Part shown: piece by piece, positions 25,669-36,914 of the stretch
How the letters are laid out: each line of letters opens with the position of its first letter
Position numbering within the stretch: the stretch's first letter is position 1
NCBI GenBank assembly: GCA_028144365.1
Contig: JAOGAX010000001.1
Location: forward strand, 45,872-109,871
Direction: 5' to 3'
From: Aquiluna sp.
Lineage (GTDB): Bacteria > Actinomycetota > Actinomycetes > Actinomycetales > Microbacteriaceae
DNA: 64,000 nt
The notes under the pieces: generated by a model
What the model saw: only the letters and a program-made list of their open reading frames with translations
The model's database searches: none
What the model was told of the DNA's origin: nothing
Program-made: the position numbers and the translations under genes

Positions 25669-26985
25669 TTGCGTGAACTAGGGGAAGAAAAGAACTTGGT
25701 TAGAAAAATCTTTGCGGCGTTATCCGTGGCCGTGCTCTCGGTCGTTGGCCTTGCGGCACCTGCGAGTGCAAATGTTGCTGAGCCTGCTTTTGACATGGTC
25801 AAGGTGAGTTCGGTTTGGGATGCTGGCCACACCGGATCTGGCGCGTCGATTGCCTTTATTGACCAGGGTGTCAACCTCACTCACGAGTACTTCCAGGGAC
25901 AGGTCATCGACGGCTTTTGCCTCTATGCCTCCTACACCAACAACTATTGCCCCAATGGCTCTAAGAGCCAGACCGGCTTGATCGCCGCATCCCAGCGAAT
26001 CGTCAATAACTTCCCTGTATTTGCAGAGAACCACGGAAACATGGTGGCCGGCATTGCCGCAGGCAAACCGAACAGCGTGGCAGCTGGCGGCATCGCTCCC
26101 GAGGCCAAGATTGTTATGGCAAACATCGACCTCACTCTCGAGGGCATCACCGCTGCCACCCGCTACATCTCAGACCGGGCAGCAGCCAACAACACTGTTG
26201 CAGTCTCGCTCTCCTTCGGTGGTCTGTTTTCAGAGATGCCTCGCAGCTGGCTGCTCTGTGACAACAACCCAGCACTTGCGGAGCTTGCGACATTGATTGG
26301 CGACATGAGGGACCGCGGAATCATTACCTTTGCGGCCGCCGGAAATACCCCCGTCCTTGACATCGCAACCTCGGTTTTCCCAAGTTGTTTGCAGGATGTG
26401 GTGGCGGTGGGATCGGTGAACTCCTTCGGAGAGATTTCTTGGTATGTAACCATGTCAGAAAAGATTGAGCTGCTCGCCCCAGACTTCACGCGCTCCGCGG
26501 ACACGCTCGGCTATCTGACTGGCTCGGGAACCTCGGCGGCAACACCCATGGTTGCTGGCGCTTTTACTCTTTTGAAGCAGGCATTTCCTGACAAGACGAG
26601 CGAGCAGGTGTTAGCCGCTCTGAAGGCCACCGGATCCATGGTCGATGACGTTATCCGCAAAGACATTCCAATGGTCAATGTCGCAGCCGCCTACAACTCG
26701 CTTGCCTCAGATACCAGCGCTCCAGAGACCCCAGAGGAAAACCTTGAGCAAAAGGTGACCATCGGAACCTTCAACGGCTATATCGCCATCTACACAAAGG
26801 GCTACGAGGGTAGAAGGCTTACCGCGAAGGTGGCAGGTCGTTGGCTAAAGGTTGACCCGATCACACTTGCCCCCGGCAAGAGCTACTCGCTCACTAAGCG
26901 CAATACCGGTGCTGGCTACCAAATAAGTGTCGCGGTTTATATCGACGGAGTGCTGAAGGCGGAGGACTCTGTTCTAACGCGCTAG
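25669..26985 (+). CDS. Secreted subtilisin-like (S8) serine protease with about 79-aa C-terminal domain shared with the 34.2 kb surface protein
   Basis: Signal peptide (real start possibly TTG at 25696), D in IAFIDQGVN, H in ENHGNMVAGIAAG, S in GSGTSAATPMVAG. Confidence 0.92.
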   Translation: MRELGEEKNLVRKIFAALSVAVLSVVGLAAPASANVAEPAFDMVKVSSVWDAGHTGSGASIAFIDQGVNLTHEYFQGQVIDGFCLYASYTNNYCPNGSKSQTGLIAASQRIVNNFPVFAENHGNMVAGIAAGKPNSVAAGGIAPEAKIVMANIDLTLEGITAATRYISDRAAANNTVAVSLSFGGLFSEMPRSWLLCDNNPALAELATLIGDMRDRGIITFAAAGNTPVLDIATSVFPSCLQDVVAVGSVNSFGEISWYVTMSEKIELLAPDFTRSADTLGYLTGSGTSAATPMVAGAFTLLKQAFPDKTSEQVLAALKATGSMVDDVIRKDIPMVNVAAAYNSLASDTSAPETPEENLEQKVTIGTFNGYIAIYTKGYEGRRLTAKVAGRWLKVDPITLAPGKSYSLTKRNTGAGYQISVAVYIDGVLKAEDSVLTR

Positions 26986-30293: not shown

Positions 30294-31235
30294 TTATCTG
30301 GCGCCCCGAGCCAGCCCCCACCAAAACCCGATGCCCCAGGCGTAGTGCATGGTTGGCAGCACAATCATTAGCCAGAGTCTGGTGGCTGGCTTTAGGTCGC
30401 CTGCGTTCATCGCGGCAAATGCGATCACCAACAAATACAAGGTCACCGGCAACCAGAAGATTGTCGAAAGCACTAATAGGGGCGGAATCCAGTAGCGGAT
30501 GGCTGACTCGCTAGGCGCCTCCCTTGTGAGGGCACCGCGCCAGATTCCTGTGTTGAAAAACTGTTTGGCTAGTGCTGGCCAGTTGTCTCTTGGGTAGTAG
30601 GTGACCTTTAGTCTCGGTTCGAACCATACTGTTCCGCCGGCCTCGCGAAGTCTCTTGTTGAGCTCCCAGTCCTGACCCCTTACCCACTTGGGATCAAATC
30701 CACCGACTTTTTTGAGCCAGCTCTTTTGGAAGCAGCCTAAATAAACACTGTCAACTGGGCCCGCGTTGCCGCCGAGGTGAAAAGCTCCACCACCTAGACC
30801 AATGCGATTGTTATAGCCGTAGGCAACGGCCTTTTGAAATTCGCTTTCGCCTTCTGCGACCATCATGCCGCCGACATTTGCGGCCCCAGTTTCTTGAAAA
30901 ACTTCTTGGGCAAGTGCCGCATAGCCTTCACAGAGTTTGCTGTGGGCATCGACGCGAATGACAGCTTCAAACTTTGCGGCGGCAATTGCGAGGTTGAGTC
31001 CCGTTGCAGTGTCGCCAGCTGGGTTTTCGACGATGGTTAGTTTTGTTTGGTACTTCTTCTTCAACTGGGAGGCAATGTCTTGTGTCAAATCTGTCGAGGG
31101 GGCAATAGCGAGAATCAGCTCACGACCTCCCTTGTGCTCTTGAGAGAAAACTGCCTCTACGGCTTCCGCTAGATGTTTTGCCTCGTTTCGCACCGGCATC
31201 ACGAAGCTGATGCCGATTTTTTTAGTTGTGGACAT
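30294..31235 (-). CDS. Glycosyltransferase family 2 (ExoA-like)
   Basis: ISFVMPVRNEAKHLAEAVEAVFSQ..., VIRVDAHSKL, GQDWELNKRLREAGG; start reassigned to the internal ATG (MSTTKK) since the track ORF runs far into ugd. Confidence 0.85.
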   Translation of the reverse strand: MSTTKKIGISFVMPVRNEAKHLAEAVEAVFSQEHKGGRELILAIAPSTDLTQDIASQLKKKYQTKLTIVENPAGDTATGLNLAIAAAKFEAVIRVDAHSKLCEGYAALAQEVFQETGAANVGGMMVAEGESEFQKAVAYGYNNRIGLGGGAFHLGGNAGPVDSVYLGCFQKSWLKKVGGFDPKWVRGQDWELNKRLREAGGTVWFEPRLKVTYYPRDNWPALAKQFFNTGIWRGALTREAPSESAIRYWIPPLLVLSTIFWLPVTLYLLVIAFAAMNAGDLKPATRLWLMIVLPTMHYAWGIGFWWGLARGAR

Positions 31236-32535
31236 TGCGACCAAGGGCGATGAGTCTCCAACCGGCTGCCTGCCATGCAGCGACATCCAAAACATTTCGT
31301 CCGTCGATAATCAACTTGTTTGCGACCAGGTCGCCGAAAGAGGCTGGATCTATCGATTTGTATTCCGACCACTCTGTTCCAAGGAATATCAACTCAGCGT
31401 CCTTTGCGCCCGTCTCTATTTCCTTTGCGCGCTCAAGTTCGGGATAGCGATCACCAAGCGAGCCTAGAGCCATGGGGTCGTGAACCCTCACTTTCGCTCC
31501 CAGAGCTGAGAGCCTGAGGGCAACATCAAGAGATGGACTGTCCCTTAGGTCATCGGAGTCGGGTTTGAAAGAGATCCCGAGAACGAGAATCTTCTTGCCT
31601 TGCAGATCTCCGAGCTCCTGCTGTGCAAGCTCAACTACTCGGTCCCTACGCCTTAGATTCACCTCATCCACATTTCTAAGGAAGTCGACAGCTGCACCTA
31701 CCCCCAGCTCCTCGGCTCGTGACAGAAAACCTCGGATATCTTTCGGCAGACATCCGCCTCCAAATCCGACCCCACTCCTGAGAAACTTTTTACCGATGCG
31801 CTCGTCCATGCCAATTGCCTCGGCGAGATCGACGATATCAGCACCTGCAACCTCAGCAACTTCCGCCATAGCGTTGATAAAACTGATCTTGGTTGCGAGA
31901 AATGAGTTTGCTGCAACTTTTACAAGCTCAGCCGTTGGTACGTCAAGCGCAAGCAATGGCGTGCCATTGTCCAAGATGGGCTTGTACGCCTCTCGAAGCT
32001 TTTCCACCGCGGCAGAGTCCCACGAGCCCACAACAATTCGATCTGGATTGAGTGAATCCTCAAGCGCCGTGCCCTCACGAAGGAACTCCGGATTCCAAGC
32101 CACTATGACGTTGAAACCAGCGAGCTCGGACATCCTACCCCGAAGGACTTCAGCAGTTCCTACTGGCACGGTGGACTTTCCAACGACAATCGTGTATTCG
32201 GACACGACCCTCGCGAGCTCTTCGGCAGCGGCAAAAACGTGTGAGGTATCGGCAGCGTAAGAACCAATTTCCTGAGGAGTTCCAACACATAGAAAGTGCA
32301 GCTGACAAGATGCACTATTTCGATCATGTTTTTCTTGGAAACTGAGGTTACCTGTCTTAGTAACGTCAATAAGTGCCTCTTGAAGCCCTGGCTCGAAAAA
32401 TGGAACTTTGCCTGAGCTTAGGAGTTTAAGCTTCTCCCGGTCCGATTCAATTCCAATCACCTCATGGCCCAGTTTTGCCATTGCCACGGCATGCGTCACA
32501 CCAAGGTAGCCAAGTCCAATGACGCCAATTTTCAC
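31222..32535 (-). CDS. ugd: UDP-glucose 6-dehydrogenase
   Basis: GLGYLGVTHAVAMAKLGHEVIG, NPEFLREGTALEDSLNPDRIVVG, GVGFGGGCLPKDIRGF catalytic Cys. Confidence 0.95.
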   Translation of the reverse strand: MKIGVIGLGYLGVTHAVAMAKLGHEVIGIESDREKLKLLSSGKVPFFEPGLQEALIDVTKTGNLSFQEKHDRNSASCQLHFLCVGTPQEIGSYAADTSHVFAAAEELARVVSEYTIVVGKSTVPVGTAEVLRGRMSELAGFNVIVAWNPEFLREGTALEDSLNPDRIVVGSWDSAAVEKLREAYKPILDNGTPLLALDVPTAELVKVAANSFLATKISFINAMAEVAEVAGADIVDLAEAIGMDERIGKKFLRSGVGFGGGCLPKDIRGFLSRAEELGVGAAVDFLRNVDEVNLRRRDRVVELAQQELGDLQGKKILVLGISFKPDSDDLRDSPSLDVALRLSALGAKVRVHDPMALGSLGDRYPELERAKEIETGAKDAELIFLGTEWSEYKSIDPASFGDLVANKLIIDGRNVLDVAAWQAAGWRLIALGRNVHN

Positions 32536-32573: not shown

Positions 32574-32601
32574 CGTAACGAGAGCGCCTGTAGCACGTAT
32601 A
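32574..32601 (+). promoter_or_regulatory. Candidate ECF-type promoter upstream of sigma factor gene
   Basis: CGTAAC-N16-CGTATA; same -35-like hexamer and spacing as 34086-34113. Confidence 0.5.
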
Positions 32602-32611
32602 TTTGAATGTT

Positions 32612-34069
32612 ATGGACAACAAAAGGCGCTCCGAGCATCTAATTGGCCTGGAGAGCTCCCATGAAGTTCTCGAGGGTCAGCCCGACAATCTTGAGGTTTT
32701 GGGGCTCTTTGAAGAGGGCGAGACTCTGATCCTTCGTGATTGGACTGCTAGGGATTTCTCTCACGCTTATGTCCGTCTAAGGCCACACCTTGAGCGTCAC
32801 GCGGCCAGATACTTGAGAGACCCTTCACAGGTTGAAGAGGTTGTGCAAGACGCCTTTCTCTACCTCATGACTGCACTGCCAGAGCTGGACTCCGAAATTG
32901 GGGTGCTCAGATTCTTGAAGTGGAAGACCAAGATGTTAGCGCTGGACGTTATCAGGTTAAATTCCAAGTATTCAGTTTCCTCTATCCAGGACTTCGAGCT
33001 CGATCTTGAAATTGAGGGCCAGGATGAAGTCTCTTTGAGACTTGAACGGGCTGATGACGCATCCATTGTGAGTATGGCATTGTCAAAGTTGAGCCCAAGA
33101 CAACGCCAAGCGATTGTTGAGACGCAACTTCTCGAGAAGCCTGTCGAAGAAGTCGCATCAGAAATGGGGCTGTCAAATAATGCTTTCAGGCAACTTCTGC
33201 ACCGAGCTAGGGCGGCCTTCAAGAGTGCACTAGTGGGAGAGGCGGAGATTCGTGGCCTGCCCGTATCCGCCATCCTGTCGATTGCAGCACGAAAAGCCGC
33301 TCGCGAATCGGGAAAACTTATCGCAGGAGCTTCCGCGTTGATAGTGGCAATTTTTGGTCTGGCTTCGATTCCTCAGTCTCCTGAGGTTCCGACCGCTCTA
33401 AGTGAGAGAGGTGGCTCTCTGATTGCAGAAGCTCCTCGGTCACCATCCGGAATCGATCAGACAGGGCAATTCGACGAGGCTAATTCCGCTGACGTGCCAA
33501 GTGCCGGTTTGACAGAGGACACTGCAGCTCCCCTCATTCCCTCCGAAGAAGAAGCGGATCAGGATGTGAGGTCCAACGAGGCACAGCTGAGCCAGTCCTC
33601 CGGTCCTTCGTCACCAGCACCAGAACAGGAAGACACTGCAGAAATAGCCCTTGCCTCCGCGGTGGAGGAATTCCTCGTGCTGCAAACTTTTGATGTTGCC
33701 AGGGGTTATGAGGTAGATACTGGCGAGGAAGTAGTCATAAAGTCCGGTGGAATCACGGCGACATTCGGTATCGATTTAGATTCCGATAATCCAGTGCAGT
33801 TTGTCTATGTCACAGCGCAACTGCCGCAAGGGGAGGTTGTAGCCGTACCAACCAATGGGCTGTCAGTTGTCGAATCAAGCTCATTCGGACGCGTCGTCTC
33901 TTACGCTGCGACTGATTTCATTGTTGGAGACCTTCAAGGGGCCCACGGAAACGCCGCATCTGCTTCAACCCAGCTCCAAGGTTACGCACTGCTCCTGAGC
34001 TTCACTGATACAGAGGGCGTCACTATTGATGTCACTAACTTCTCATTTGAAGGCAAAACCAAAGCCTAG
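32612..34069 (+). CDS. ECF sigma factor with C-terminal TM segment and predicted extracytoplasmic domain
   Basis: Region 2 (LERHAARYLRDPSQVEEVVQDAFLYLMTALPEL), region 4 (ALSKLSPRQRQAIVETQLLEKPVEEVASEMGLSNNAFRQLLHRARAAFKSAL), TM (LIAGASALIVAIFGLASI), acidic S/P-rich linker, C-terminal about 140-aa domain; track ORF begins at TTG 32603. Confidence 0.85.
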   Translation: MDNKRRSEHLIGLESSHEVLEGQPDNLEVLGLFEEGETLILRDWTARDFSHAYVRLRPHLERHAARYLRDPSQVEEVVQDAFLYLMTALPELDSEIGVLRFLKWKTKMLALDVIRLNSKYSVSSIQDFELDLEIEGQDEVSLRLERADDASIVSMALSKLSPRQRQAIVETQLLEKPVEEVASEMGLSNNAFRQLLHRARAAFKSALVGEAEIRGLPVSAILSIAARKAARESGKLIAGASALIVAIFGLASIPQSPEVPTALSERGGSLIAEAPRSPSGIDQTGQFDEANSADVPSAGLTEDTAAPLIPSEEEADQDVRSNEAQLSQSSGPSSPAPEQEDTAEIALASAVEEFLVLQTFDVARGYEVDTGEEVVIKSGGITATFGIDLDSDNPVQFVYVTAQLPQGEVVAVPTNGLSVVESSSFGRVVSYAATDFIVGDLQGAHGNAASASTQLQGYALLLSFTDTEGVTIDVTNFSFEGKTKA

Positions 34070-34085: not shown

Positions 34086-34113
34086 CGTAACAAATTGACC
34101 ATTTGTCCGCTAA
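34086..34113 (+). promoter_or_regulatory. Candidate ECF-type promoter upstream of surface protein gene
   Basis: CGTAAC-N16-CGCTAA, matching the motif upstream of the adjacent sigma factor. Confidence 0.45.
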
Positions 34114-34211
34114 TGTTCTCTAGAGGCCTTGTGAGCTCCTGCTTGGTTGGAACTCGCACTGTCTCGAAGCGGCCTGAAAATCAGGTTGCTAAACCAAGAA
34201 GAAAGAGACAC

Positions 34212-36914
34212 ATGTCTAAGAACAATGACACCAAAAAGGGTCTTGCTCTCGGCGCAATTTTTGGATTAATTGCAGGCCTGTTCTCGGCTATGCCAGCATC
34301 TGCTGCACCGAGCACTACCGCCTTCACTTTTGATCCAGCCGGAGCAGGCACCTCTTTTGTGACTTTCGTTGACGAGGACTTCACGATGTCAGTGCAGAGA
34401 GATATTTCTGTCATCTCGGCCACCGACTTCGCGACCCTCAAATACGACATCAGTTTCAACTCTGGCGTTTCGCACTCCTTTGAGGTGCTAGCTGGAACTG
34501 GATCTGCTGCTGTTGCAATGTCAGCATCGTCACAACTCGAAAACCTAACGGTTTACGGAGAGCAGCGTATTTACTACGGTGGCAACACCGTGGCCGCACT
34601 CAACGGTAACCGTCAGGTCAACACGTTCTCACAGTATGTGAACGACAATGACGACAACACCGTCCTTGCCACTCAGTCCTGGGTTGTGAAGCCTTCAAGC
34701 TTCAGCTCGACTATTGACAATCAGATCAGCCTTCGAATCATTGGTGAGAATGGCTTCAATCTGACCACGATGTCTGCAACTGTCGTTGCAACTGTCCGCC
34801 CGTTCCTTGACCTGAACAACAACAACAAGTGGGACTCGGCTAGCGAACCGTCAGCGGTGCAGACCGTGACTTTCGGCAGCTACGCGTCGCTTGCACCAAC
34901 CACATCTGTTGCGAAAGGTGTTGCAGGTGATAACCACGTGACAGCTTCGGTCACTCTTCCAGCAATGAACTATGGTCAGCTGGGAGGAAAGTTCTTTGTC
35001 AAGTGGACCTACGCGGGAATGAACTCAACGACTTCTGCCATCTCTCTCTCGGCAACAGCTGAGAGAACAATCACCGACGCTAACTACCTGACGGCCCTGA
35101 GTGCTTCTCTCGCGGTAACTGCTGCGCAGCTCGGAGCGTCTTGGAGTGCATCTGTTGGTTACGTCAAGGATGGGGTTGTGTTTACCACCATCGGCGAAGC
35201 TCTAGGTATTGACCAGGATTTTGTCAGTCGAACTTGGGGCCTTGGCACTTCTGCTGCGGTTGCGCGTTCGATTGATGACGTCGGAATTTACACATTCCCA
35301 ACTGCCAATCAAACACAGGCAGGTGCGGCTAGGCCTAACTCGACCTACGTGGTCACAGTGACGGCCCACACCGCATCAGCTGTCTCCGTATCAGCTGCGT
35401 CAATTAGACTCGACTTCTCCGGAACGGGTTTGACTGTGGACAAGACCCTGGCTGTCAATGGTGGAACACCATCGACGGGATCACATGGTCCGGTCACAGT
35501 AGTCACAGGTGCTGACGGAACAGCCACAGCAACCTTGGTTGCAAGTGGTTTCGCAGTCGGAGACACAATCACAATAACGGCGAACCAAGCAGGTACGGAT
35601 GCAGAATCCAGGACGCTGACTATGACGGCTCCAACCTGGACGCTCGAAAATGACGCCGACTTGAAAACTGCCACTCCTGGTAGCACCGTCAATGTCTCAG
35701 TTTCTGTCAAGGACCAATGGGATGTTCTCAGCACGCGGACTGACCAGCAGGTTTGGTTTACAAAGGGAGCACCGTTCGATGACGCCAACACTGTGTCAAA
35801 GGTAGCTGTGGTTAATGGTGTTGCGACTGCAGCGCTTGCTCTAACTCCAGCCACGCAAACGGGATCCTTCGCAGTAACTGCTGATCTTCGTACCCTAAAC
35901 CAGAACACTGGTAACTACGATGCGACGAACCACACTGATGATTCAGATGGTATGAACATCACTGTAACTGGTGCCGCGAACGCCTTCAGGACTGGCCTAG
36001 CAGCTAGCTACAGCGCGTCAATCTCTTATGGAACCGACCTTTCGTGGTCATCAACCATTGAGGCTGCCTACGTTGTAGTAACTGCATCAAGTGTCGTGGT
36101 TTCCGGAGCAGGTCTAATGTTCCGTGACGCCAACAAGTTGACTAGTACAGCCAGTGACTCTTTGACACTGGTCGGTACGTCAACGGCACGTGTTCAGTTC
36201 CAGGTAACGGCACGTATGGCGGGTACCTACACCGTCACCCTAACTGCAGGCTCTGCAACCACAACCTCTTTGATTGTGGTCAACCCAGCCCGCAGCGACA
36301 TGGGTACAACGATTACTTGGGACACCACTGCAATCTCAGCAGGTAGGACCAAGATTGTTGCTGGTACTCTCACCGACGCAAACGGTAACCCTGTTTACAC
36401 AGATGGTCCTGGTGGTGAAGGCGATGTTAACGACAGCGCTACAACCGCCTCGATTCTTGTCACCTATGCTGGCACTGCAGGTATCCCAGTTGGTTCGATG
36501 CCAACCGAGACTGATGCAGATGGAAAGTTTAGGATTTCGGTCCTGACCTCTGGTTCTGATGACGGTTCGTTCACTCTCACTGCTGTGTACAGTGCTGATG
36601 GAACTGCAACTGCAGCAGCTGACAAGGTGACGAGCATCAACACAATCACCGTTGGCGACAACGTTGAGGCTGTTGACCAAAAGATCACAGTTGGTTCCTT
36701 CAAGGGATACATCGCAATCTACACCAAGGGCTACATGGGCCAGAAGCTATCTGCGAAGGTAGCTGGCAAGTGGCTAGTAGTTGACCCAATCGCCGCATGG
36801 CAGGGCAACGACTACAGCCGCGCTGTGCGCCTCACTGGTGCCGGATACACCATCCTTGTACATCTGTACATTGACGGTGAGTTCGTAAGAAGCGAAACTA
36901 TCGTTACTAAGTAA
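34212..36914 (+). CDS. Large secreted surface protein (about 900 aa) with Ig-like/invasin-like repeats and the shared C-terminal domain
   Basis: Internal ATG 34212 gives signal peptide MSKNNDTKKGLALGAIFGLIAGLFSAMPASA^AP; T/S/A/V-rich beta-sandwich-like repeats; C-term DQKITVGSFKGYIAIYTKGY...IVTK. Confidence 0.88.
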   Translation: MSKNNDTKKGLALGAIFGLIAGLFSAMPASAAPSTTAFTFDPAGAGTSFVTFVDEDFTMSVQRDISVISATDFATLKYDISFNSGVSHSFEVLAGTGSAAVAMSASSQLENLTVYGEQRIYYGGNTVAALNGNRQVNTFSQYVNDNDDNTVLATQSWVVKPSSFSSTIDNQISLRIIGENGFNLTTMSATVVATVRPFLDLNNNNKWDSASEPSAVQTVTFGSYASLAPTTSVAKGVAGDNHVTASVTLPAMNYGQLGGKFFVKWTYAGMNSTTSAISLSATAERTITDANYLTALSASLAVTAAQLGASWSASVGYVKDGVVFTTIGEALGIDQDFVSRTWGLGTSAAVARSIDDVGIYTFPTANQTQAGAARPNSTYVVTVTAHTASAVSVSAASIRLDFSGTGLTVDKTLAVNGGTPSTGSHGPVTVVTGADGTATATLVASGFAVGDTITITANQAGTDAESRTLTMTAPTWTLENDADLKTATPGSTVNVSVSVKDQWDVLSTRTDQQVWFTKGAPFDDANTVSKVAVVNGVATAALALTPATQTGSFAVTADLRTLNQNTGNYDATNHTDDSDGMNITVTGAANAFRTGLAASYSASISYGTDLSWSSTIEAAYVVVTASSVVVSGAGLMFRDANKLTSTASDSLTLVGTSTARVQFQVTARMAGTYTVTLTAGSATTTSLIVVNPARSDMGTTITWDTTAISAGRTKIVAGTLTDANGNPVYTDGPGGEGDVNDSATTASILVTYAGTAGIPVGSMPTETDADGKFRISVLTSGSDDGSFTLTAVYSADGTATAAADKVTSINTITVGDNVEAVDQKITVGSFKGYIAIYTKGYMGQKLSAKVAGKWLVVDPIAAWQGNDYSRAVRLTGAGYTILVHLYIDGEFVRSETIVTK

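Follow-up and report, generated by a model that had tools for sequence, protein, structure and literature searches.

How is an ECF sigma factor controlled, and which genes does it serve, when it is encoded in one chain with a transmembrane (TM) helix and an extracytoplasmic domain? The question is raised by a gene in the window, that is, the whole 64,000-nucleotide stretch of Aquiluna sp. DNA that was analyzed (GenBank assembly GCA_028144365.1, contig JAOGAX010000001.1, positions 45,872 to 109,871 of the forward strand). Its neighbors encode a nucleotide-sugar dehydrogenase and a secreted protein (Table 1), and, as the earlier note had remarked, no separate anti-sigma gene adjoins it in the window. 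The best explanation, to which we give a probability of roughly 0.7, is a one-protein membrane switch that would combine a tether, its release, and transcription of the sigma and surface protein genes.

The frame had been read in the earlier note as sigma regions 2 and 4, a TM segment, an acidic linker, and a C-terminal domain, and Pfam, TIGR02937, hydropathy, and AlphaFold all agree with this reading. In the window protein, Sigma70_r2 was matched at aa 53-117 (E=1.6e-8) and Sigma70_r4_2 at aa 153-202 (E=4.9e-12), and the TIGR02937 (ECF superfamily) score was 71.7 bits (cut-off, 42.9); both Pfam domains were found in 25/25 family members. Sigma regions 2 and 4 are present and regions 1 and 3 are not, as in ECF (group 4) sigma factors, and the best Foldseek matches to the protein model were ECF sigma factors, such as SigL and SigE. 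Translation probably starts at ATG 32612, the alternative TTG at 32603 being unlikely because it adjoins the predicted -10 hexamer, which covers 32596-32601. In orthologs, region 2 is preceded by a conserved acidic N-terminal extension (EDPLExLLDEESDEEFG), which is degenerate and largely lost in the window copy (aa 1-40).

Table 1. Features of the sigma factor locus and its neighbors (positions in the window; identities are mean pairwise values within the family)
Feature	Positions	Strand	Description
Nucleotide-sugar dehydrogenase gene	31222-32535	-	Divergent upstream neighbor of the sigma gene; named from sequence
Predicted ECF-type promoter of sigma gene	32574-32601	+	-35 CGTAAC 32574-32579, N16, -10 CGTATA 32596-32601
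Membrane-anchored ECF sigma factor gene	32612-34069	+	485 aa; one uninterrupted frame; orthologs
Sigma region 2 (aa 41-120)	32732-32971	+	Pfam, model; 77% mean pairwise identity
Sigma region 4 (aa 138-208)	33023-33235	+	Pfam, Foldseek to ECF sigma structures; 71% mean pairwise identity
Juxtamembrane segment (aa 209-235)	33236-33316	+	Motif ILSxAARK, no Cys; 66% identity
Single TM helix, predicted (aa 236-254)	33317-33373	+	Hydropathy; helix 218-251 in model; 40% identity
Acidic S/P/E-rich disordered linker (aa 255-337)	33374-33622	+	pLDDT about 28-40; 20% identity
Extracytoplasmic helix + beta-strand domain (aa 338-485, ~148 aa)	33623-34066	+	Fast-evolving; 22% identity
Predicted ECF-type promoter of surface gene	34086-34113	+	-35 CGTAAC 34086-34091, N16, -10 CGCTAA 34108-34113
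Structured 5' leader of surface mRNA	34120-34211	+	Helices P1, P2 and CTTGGTT/AACCAAG pairing
Predicted target, secreted surface protein	34212-36914	+	900 aa; signal peptide MSKNNDTKKGLALGAIFGLIAGLFSAMPASA

The hydrophobic segment, which the earlier note had taken for a membrane helix, holds up as a predicted one, as aa 236-254 is the sole strongly hydrophobic 19-mer of the protein (KD 2.18 versus 1.36 for the runner-up). Because five K+R residues occur in the preceding 30 aa versus two in the following 60 aa, the positive-inside rule predicts an N-in/C-out topology, and the same charge distribution around a single TM helix is seen in nearly all orthologs. In the full-length AlphaFold model (mean pLDDT 62.8), the two sigma modules are helical, residues 218-251 form a long helix, and the linker (about 252-338) is disordered; the outer domain modeled alone (pLDDT 78.1, pTM 0.72) forms one helix and beta strands (about 338-482). 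Identity is high in the sigma half and low in the linker and outer domain, which suggests a constrained effector and a diverging sensor. The juxtamembrane segment, in which LS.AAR is invariant in the family and the flanking I and K are conserved at ≥90%, is a candidate autoinhibitory or hinge segment; its contact with the sigma domains was not seen in the AlphaFold model, where pLDDT is low in this part.

The outer domain matched no Pfam family and no PDB sequence, and Foldseek against PDB gave nothing significant for it; assignment to a known fold or family was rejected on the PDB sequence and Foldseek negatives. A DUF5643 match in one member (E=6.5e-4) fell below the cut-off and is a weak lead. 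Resemblance of the outer domain to the surface protein, which would allow self-recognition by homology, was likewise rejected, with a profile-profile probability below 1%.

Another 29 orthologs, from Aquiluna, Rhodoluna, and their planktonic sister lineages in the Microbacteriaceae (Luna-1), share this architecture; one of these lacks its 5' part because the contig ends there. The single frameshifted copy (G004/L047) lies in a locus where adjacent genes are also broken, and the possibility raised in the earlier note that the fusion is a sequencing, frameshift, or assembly artifact was rejected on both counts. Within the genus, 17 of the 22 other genomes encode an ortholog (two of them only as a fragment or broken copy), and other genera do as well; named ortholog records come from Aquiluna (including Ca. 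Aquiluna sp. IMCC13023), Rhodoluna, and Microbacteriaceae from aquatic samples. Family-wide, only 6/150 Microbacteriaceae genomes carry an ortholog at the threshold used, and the distribution of the sigma-TM fusion is restricted to Luna-1 lineages.

What such a sigma factor may transcribe is suggested by two promoters. The -10 element of the predicted sigma gene promoter ends 10 nt before the ATG in the window and about 9-11 nt before it in most Aquiluna loci; therefore, transcription of the gene may be near-leaderless. Upstream of the sigma gene, CGTAAY-N16-CGTATA was found in 22/29 loci (0.02 expected from first-order shuffles), and CGTAAY-N16-CGNTA was found between the sigma stop codon and the gene for the signal-peptide protein in 20/30 loci (0.06 expected), counts that make the evolutionarily separate cases look more numerous than they are, as the loci are partly non-independent (L092/L093 and L095/L098/L101 are near-identical). 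Four more sigma loci have a 17-nt spacer, three of them with CATAAC, and a 21st downstream promoter (L102) lies just beyond the 350-nt test window. The downstream motif occurred 10 times (0.2 expected) in 337 kb of flanking sequence from Aquiluna and Rhodoluna, nine times at a surface gene, and variants with spacers of 14, 15, 17, or 18 nt gave 0-1 matches each; a genus-wide scan of 23 genomes returned 11 matches, eight of them at surface genes with the leader described below. A wider regulon was rejected, since these searches gave essentially only the sigma and surface promoters and the other examined matches lie in apparent coding stretches. Because promoters are shared by the two genes, a tiny regulon of about two genes is predicted, in which the sigma factor most likely switches on its own gene and the surface protein gene.

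The fused sigma factor is the best candidate to read promoters of the form CGTAAY-N16-CGNNA, given the linkage, the autoregulation, and their ECF-type form. The two promoters differ in their -10 element (CGTATA at the sigma gene versus CGTTAC at the surface gene), and another ECF could in principle read them, three other sigma factors being present in complete relatives. A second class of surface-gene promoter, GTAAC-N16-TGGTTACC, precedes the same leader and often belongs to surface genes that are paralogs in tandem (L072, L080, L084-L088, and L090, as well as surface genes of G009 and G010), and is possibly read by the same sigma factor. Many surface promoters (e.g., L034, L036, L046, and L050) also contain a palindrome, TGTCCGGACA, between -35 and -10, with related sequences nearby (GTCCGGAC/GTCCAGAC), a possible operator for a second regulator.

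The link between the sigma factor and the downstream surface gene, on which the earlier note had built its proposal, gains support from the promoter at both genes and from G011, where a different gene (prfB by sequence) follows sigma and the promoter and leader have stayed with the surface gene ~78 kb away. Among relatives, L044, L045, and L046 have unrelated genes ahead of sigma and still a surface-family gene behind it. Several genomes carry sigma without an adjoining surface gene. In three of these (G012, G016, and G017) there is also no recognizable leader, so the target there must differ or have diverged. The motif and a true leader are absent from 5/5 genomes without sigma, and the leader is present in 13/18 with it, a co-occurrence that is supporting only, as some genomes are incomplete and related.

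A further layer of control may come from the leader on the surface mRNA, which is shared by Aquiluna and Rhodoluna (loci L031-L117). Among 17 sequences, two hairpin regions covary, with 12 pairs changed on both sides, and the covariation score of 0.333 (0.148 for shuffled alignments) was reached by 0/500 shuffles and exceeded that of slid controls (≤0.111). The pairing of CTTGGTT (34142-34148) with AACCAAG (34192-34198), predicted to form a pseudoknot just before the Shine-Dalgarno sequence, is invariant and, taken alone, is without covariation support. As no Rfam family matches, a known RNA family was rejected, and the leader appears to be an unrecorded, covariation-supported structure.

In the proposed switch, the single TM helix would hold the sigma domains against the membrane on its cytoplasmic side, with the flexible linker and the variable sensor domain outside. 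In this state, the tether and/or the juxtamembrane segment would stop the sigma factor from initiating productively, in place of a zinc-finger anti-sigma domain. A cell-surface change registered by the outer domain, perhaps one of "surface integrity" as the earlier note had suggested, would free the sigma half, most plausibly by two-step proteolysis with an M50 (Rip1/RseP-type) protease acting last, and the freed sigma factor would then transcribe the secreted surface protein gene and, in positive feedback, its own. The architecture, its conservation, the paired promoters, the linkage, and the M50 presence in relatives can be read from the DNA itself; inhibition by the tether, the signal, and promoter recognition by the sigma factor are what we infer. 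Proteolytic release is suggested by the general presence of M50 proteases, one being found in 22/23 genus genomes, with none seen in the window's own genome, which is 55% complete. A stricter version, a closed loop in which the outer domain senses the state of the surface layer (or secretion), cleavage frees a sigma factor that has no anti-sigma domain at all, only the sigma and surface genes are activated, and the leader provides a second layer of control, is tentative, with the odds against it. SigW-RsiW and RpoE-RseA are membrane anti-sigma/ECF pairs in which an outside signal leads to release of sigma inside and which have an autoregulated bipartite ECF promoter. The bipartite -35/-10 elements and the proposed logic from outside signal to sigma release are alike, whereas one protein takes the place of two here and a separate anti-sigma gene is absent.

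The closest known kind appears to be the actinobacterial membrane-fused ECF48, ECF52, and ECF53 groups, which carry a zinc-finger anti-sigma domain and a TM segment (PMC8999054, PMC5826349). ECF52 (SCO4117 of Streptomyces coelicolor) and ECF53 likewise join an ECF sigma factor to a TM segment, a Pro-rich or disordered extracytoplasmic extension, and a terminal domain, and autoregulation and proteolytic release have been proposed for them as well (PMC5826349, PMC8999054); ECF48 is similar in its fused zinc-finger/TM extension (PMC8999054). Of the features that define these groups, one or two C-terminal TM helices with an extracytoplasmic extension are present here, but the zinc finger (ZAS, zf-HC2) between sigma4 and the TM segment is not. 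A match to zf-HC2 was found in 0/25 family members, a zinc-finger version from a larger-genome member of the Microbacteriaceae (L030) being detected as a positive control (E=1.3e-6), and the 16 Aquiluna-set proteins have at most one Cys each, inside sigma, and none in the juxtamembrane region; a hidden zinc-finger anti-sigma domain was ruled out on these grounds. A counterpart of the C-terminal carbohydrate-binding domain of ECF52 was not found either (carbohydrate-binding module [CBM], 0/25 C-domains), and, unlike in ECF52/ECF53, a specific surface-protein target with a shared promoter is predicted. Without a zinc finger, the protein is, by domain content, probably not simply an ECF48/52/53 member. 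The earlier note was right that actinobacterial groups with TM extensions in place of anti-sigma factors exist, although theirs hold the zinc finger that is missing here.

That the protein is nothing more than a fused sigma factor of the ECF52/53 (or ECF48) type, already described and equipped with a C-terminal zinc-finger anti-sigma domain and TM segment, is nonetheless suggested by the shared order sigma2-sigma4-TM-Pro/acidic linker-extracytoplasmic domain in Actinobacteria (PMC8999054, PMC5826349) and by the genuine zinc-finger version in L030; given the domain and cysteine searches above and the confinement of the fusion to Luna-1 lineages, we consider it quite improbable. The tether might instead be non-inhibitory, with a sigma factor that is constitutive at the membrane and drives a house-keeping surface gene, the outer domain merely anchoring or localizing it. 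The tiny predicted regulon, the near-leaderless autoregulatory promoter, the lack of a recognizable anti-sigma domain, and the fast divergence of the outer domain (22% identity) would suit such a protein; however, an autoregulated ECF of its own would be superfluous for a constitutive promoter, and the ILSxAARK segment and the alpha+beta outer domain are each conserved as a unit; we consider this reading unlikely.

Control might also operate without cleavage, by conformational change or oligomerization across the membrane, in a ToxR/CadC-like one-component logic with a sigma factor replacing the DNA-binding activator. A single TM helix with an outside sensor and an inside effector in one chain is what this would require, but a membrane-held sigma factor must load RNA polymerase and reach promoters, and the sole experimentally shown fused ECF, IutY of Pseudomonas putida (ECF243), is freed through cleavage by Prc and RseP, which its activity requires (PMC8999054); we give control without cleavage little credence. 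IutY also unites sigma and a membrane-spanning part in one protein, that part being its anti-sigma (PMC8999054), and differs in serving Gram-negative cell-surface signaling for iron and in its FecR-like domain, which was not seen here.

If true, the one-protein switch with release of the sigma half would be among the simplest envelope signaling devices known, with one chain serving as sensor, tether, and sigma factor, and would wire an outside event to surface-protein production through one molecule. Highly streamlined freshwater and marine Actinobacteria that shed most regulators have retained the protein; by comparison, only two sigma factors are present in Pontimonas salivibrio, a streamlined relative (PMC6106888). 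New here are the predicted sigma-gene promoter, the matching surface-gene promoter, and the surface mRNA leader, so that a candidate target and promoter, usually missing for membrane-fused ECFs, are in hand. Since Rhodoluna carries the sigma locus (e.g., L046 in genome G032) and natural transformation and established gene inactivation are available for Rhodoluna lacicola (PMC11577799), the idea is directly testable.

The surface protein itself matches no Pfam family. In L104, L105, and L106 (Rhodoluna limnophila-type), the promoter and leader precede a different secreted protein of ~310 aa with a basic, possibly coiled-coil C-terminus in place of the usual 800-1000 aa surface protein, and the control region appears to have been kept while its product was swapped. 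The surface protein in the window has a C-terminal domain in common with a secreted S8 (subtilisin-family) protease (25669-26985), with the motif GxFxGYIAIYTKGYxGxxLxAKVAGxWLxVDPI...YIDG; related domains occur in many secreted proteins of the genus, and this is a candidate cell-surface sorting or attachment domain.
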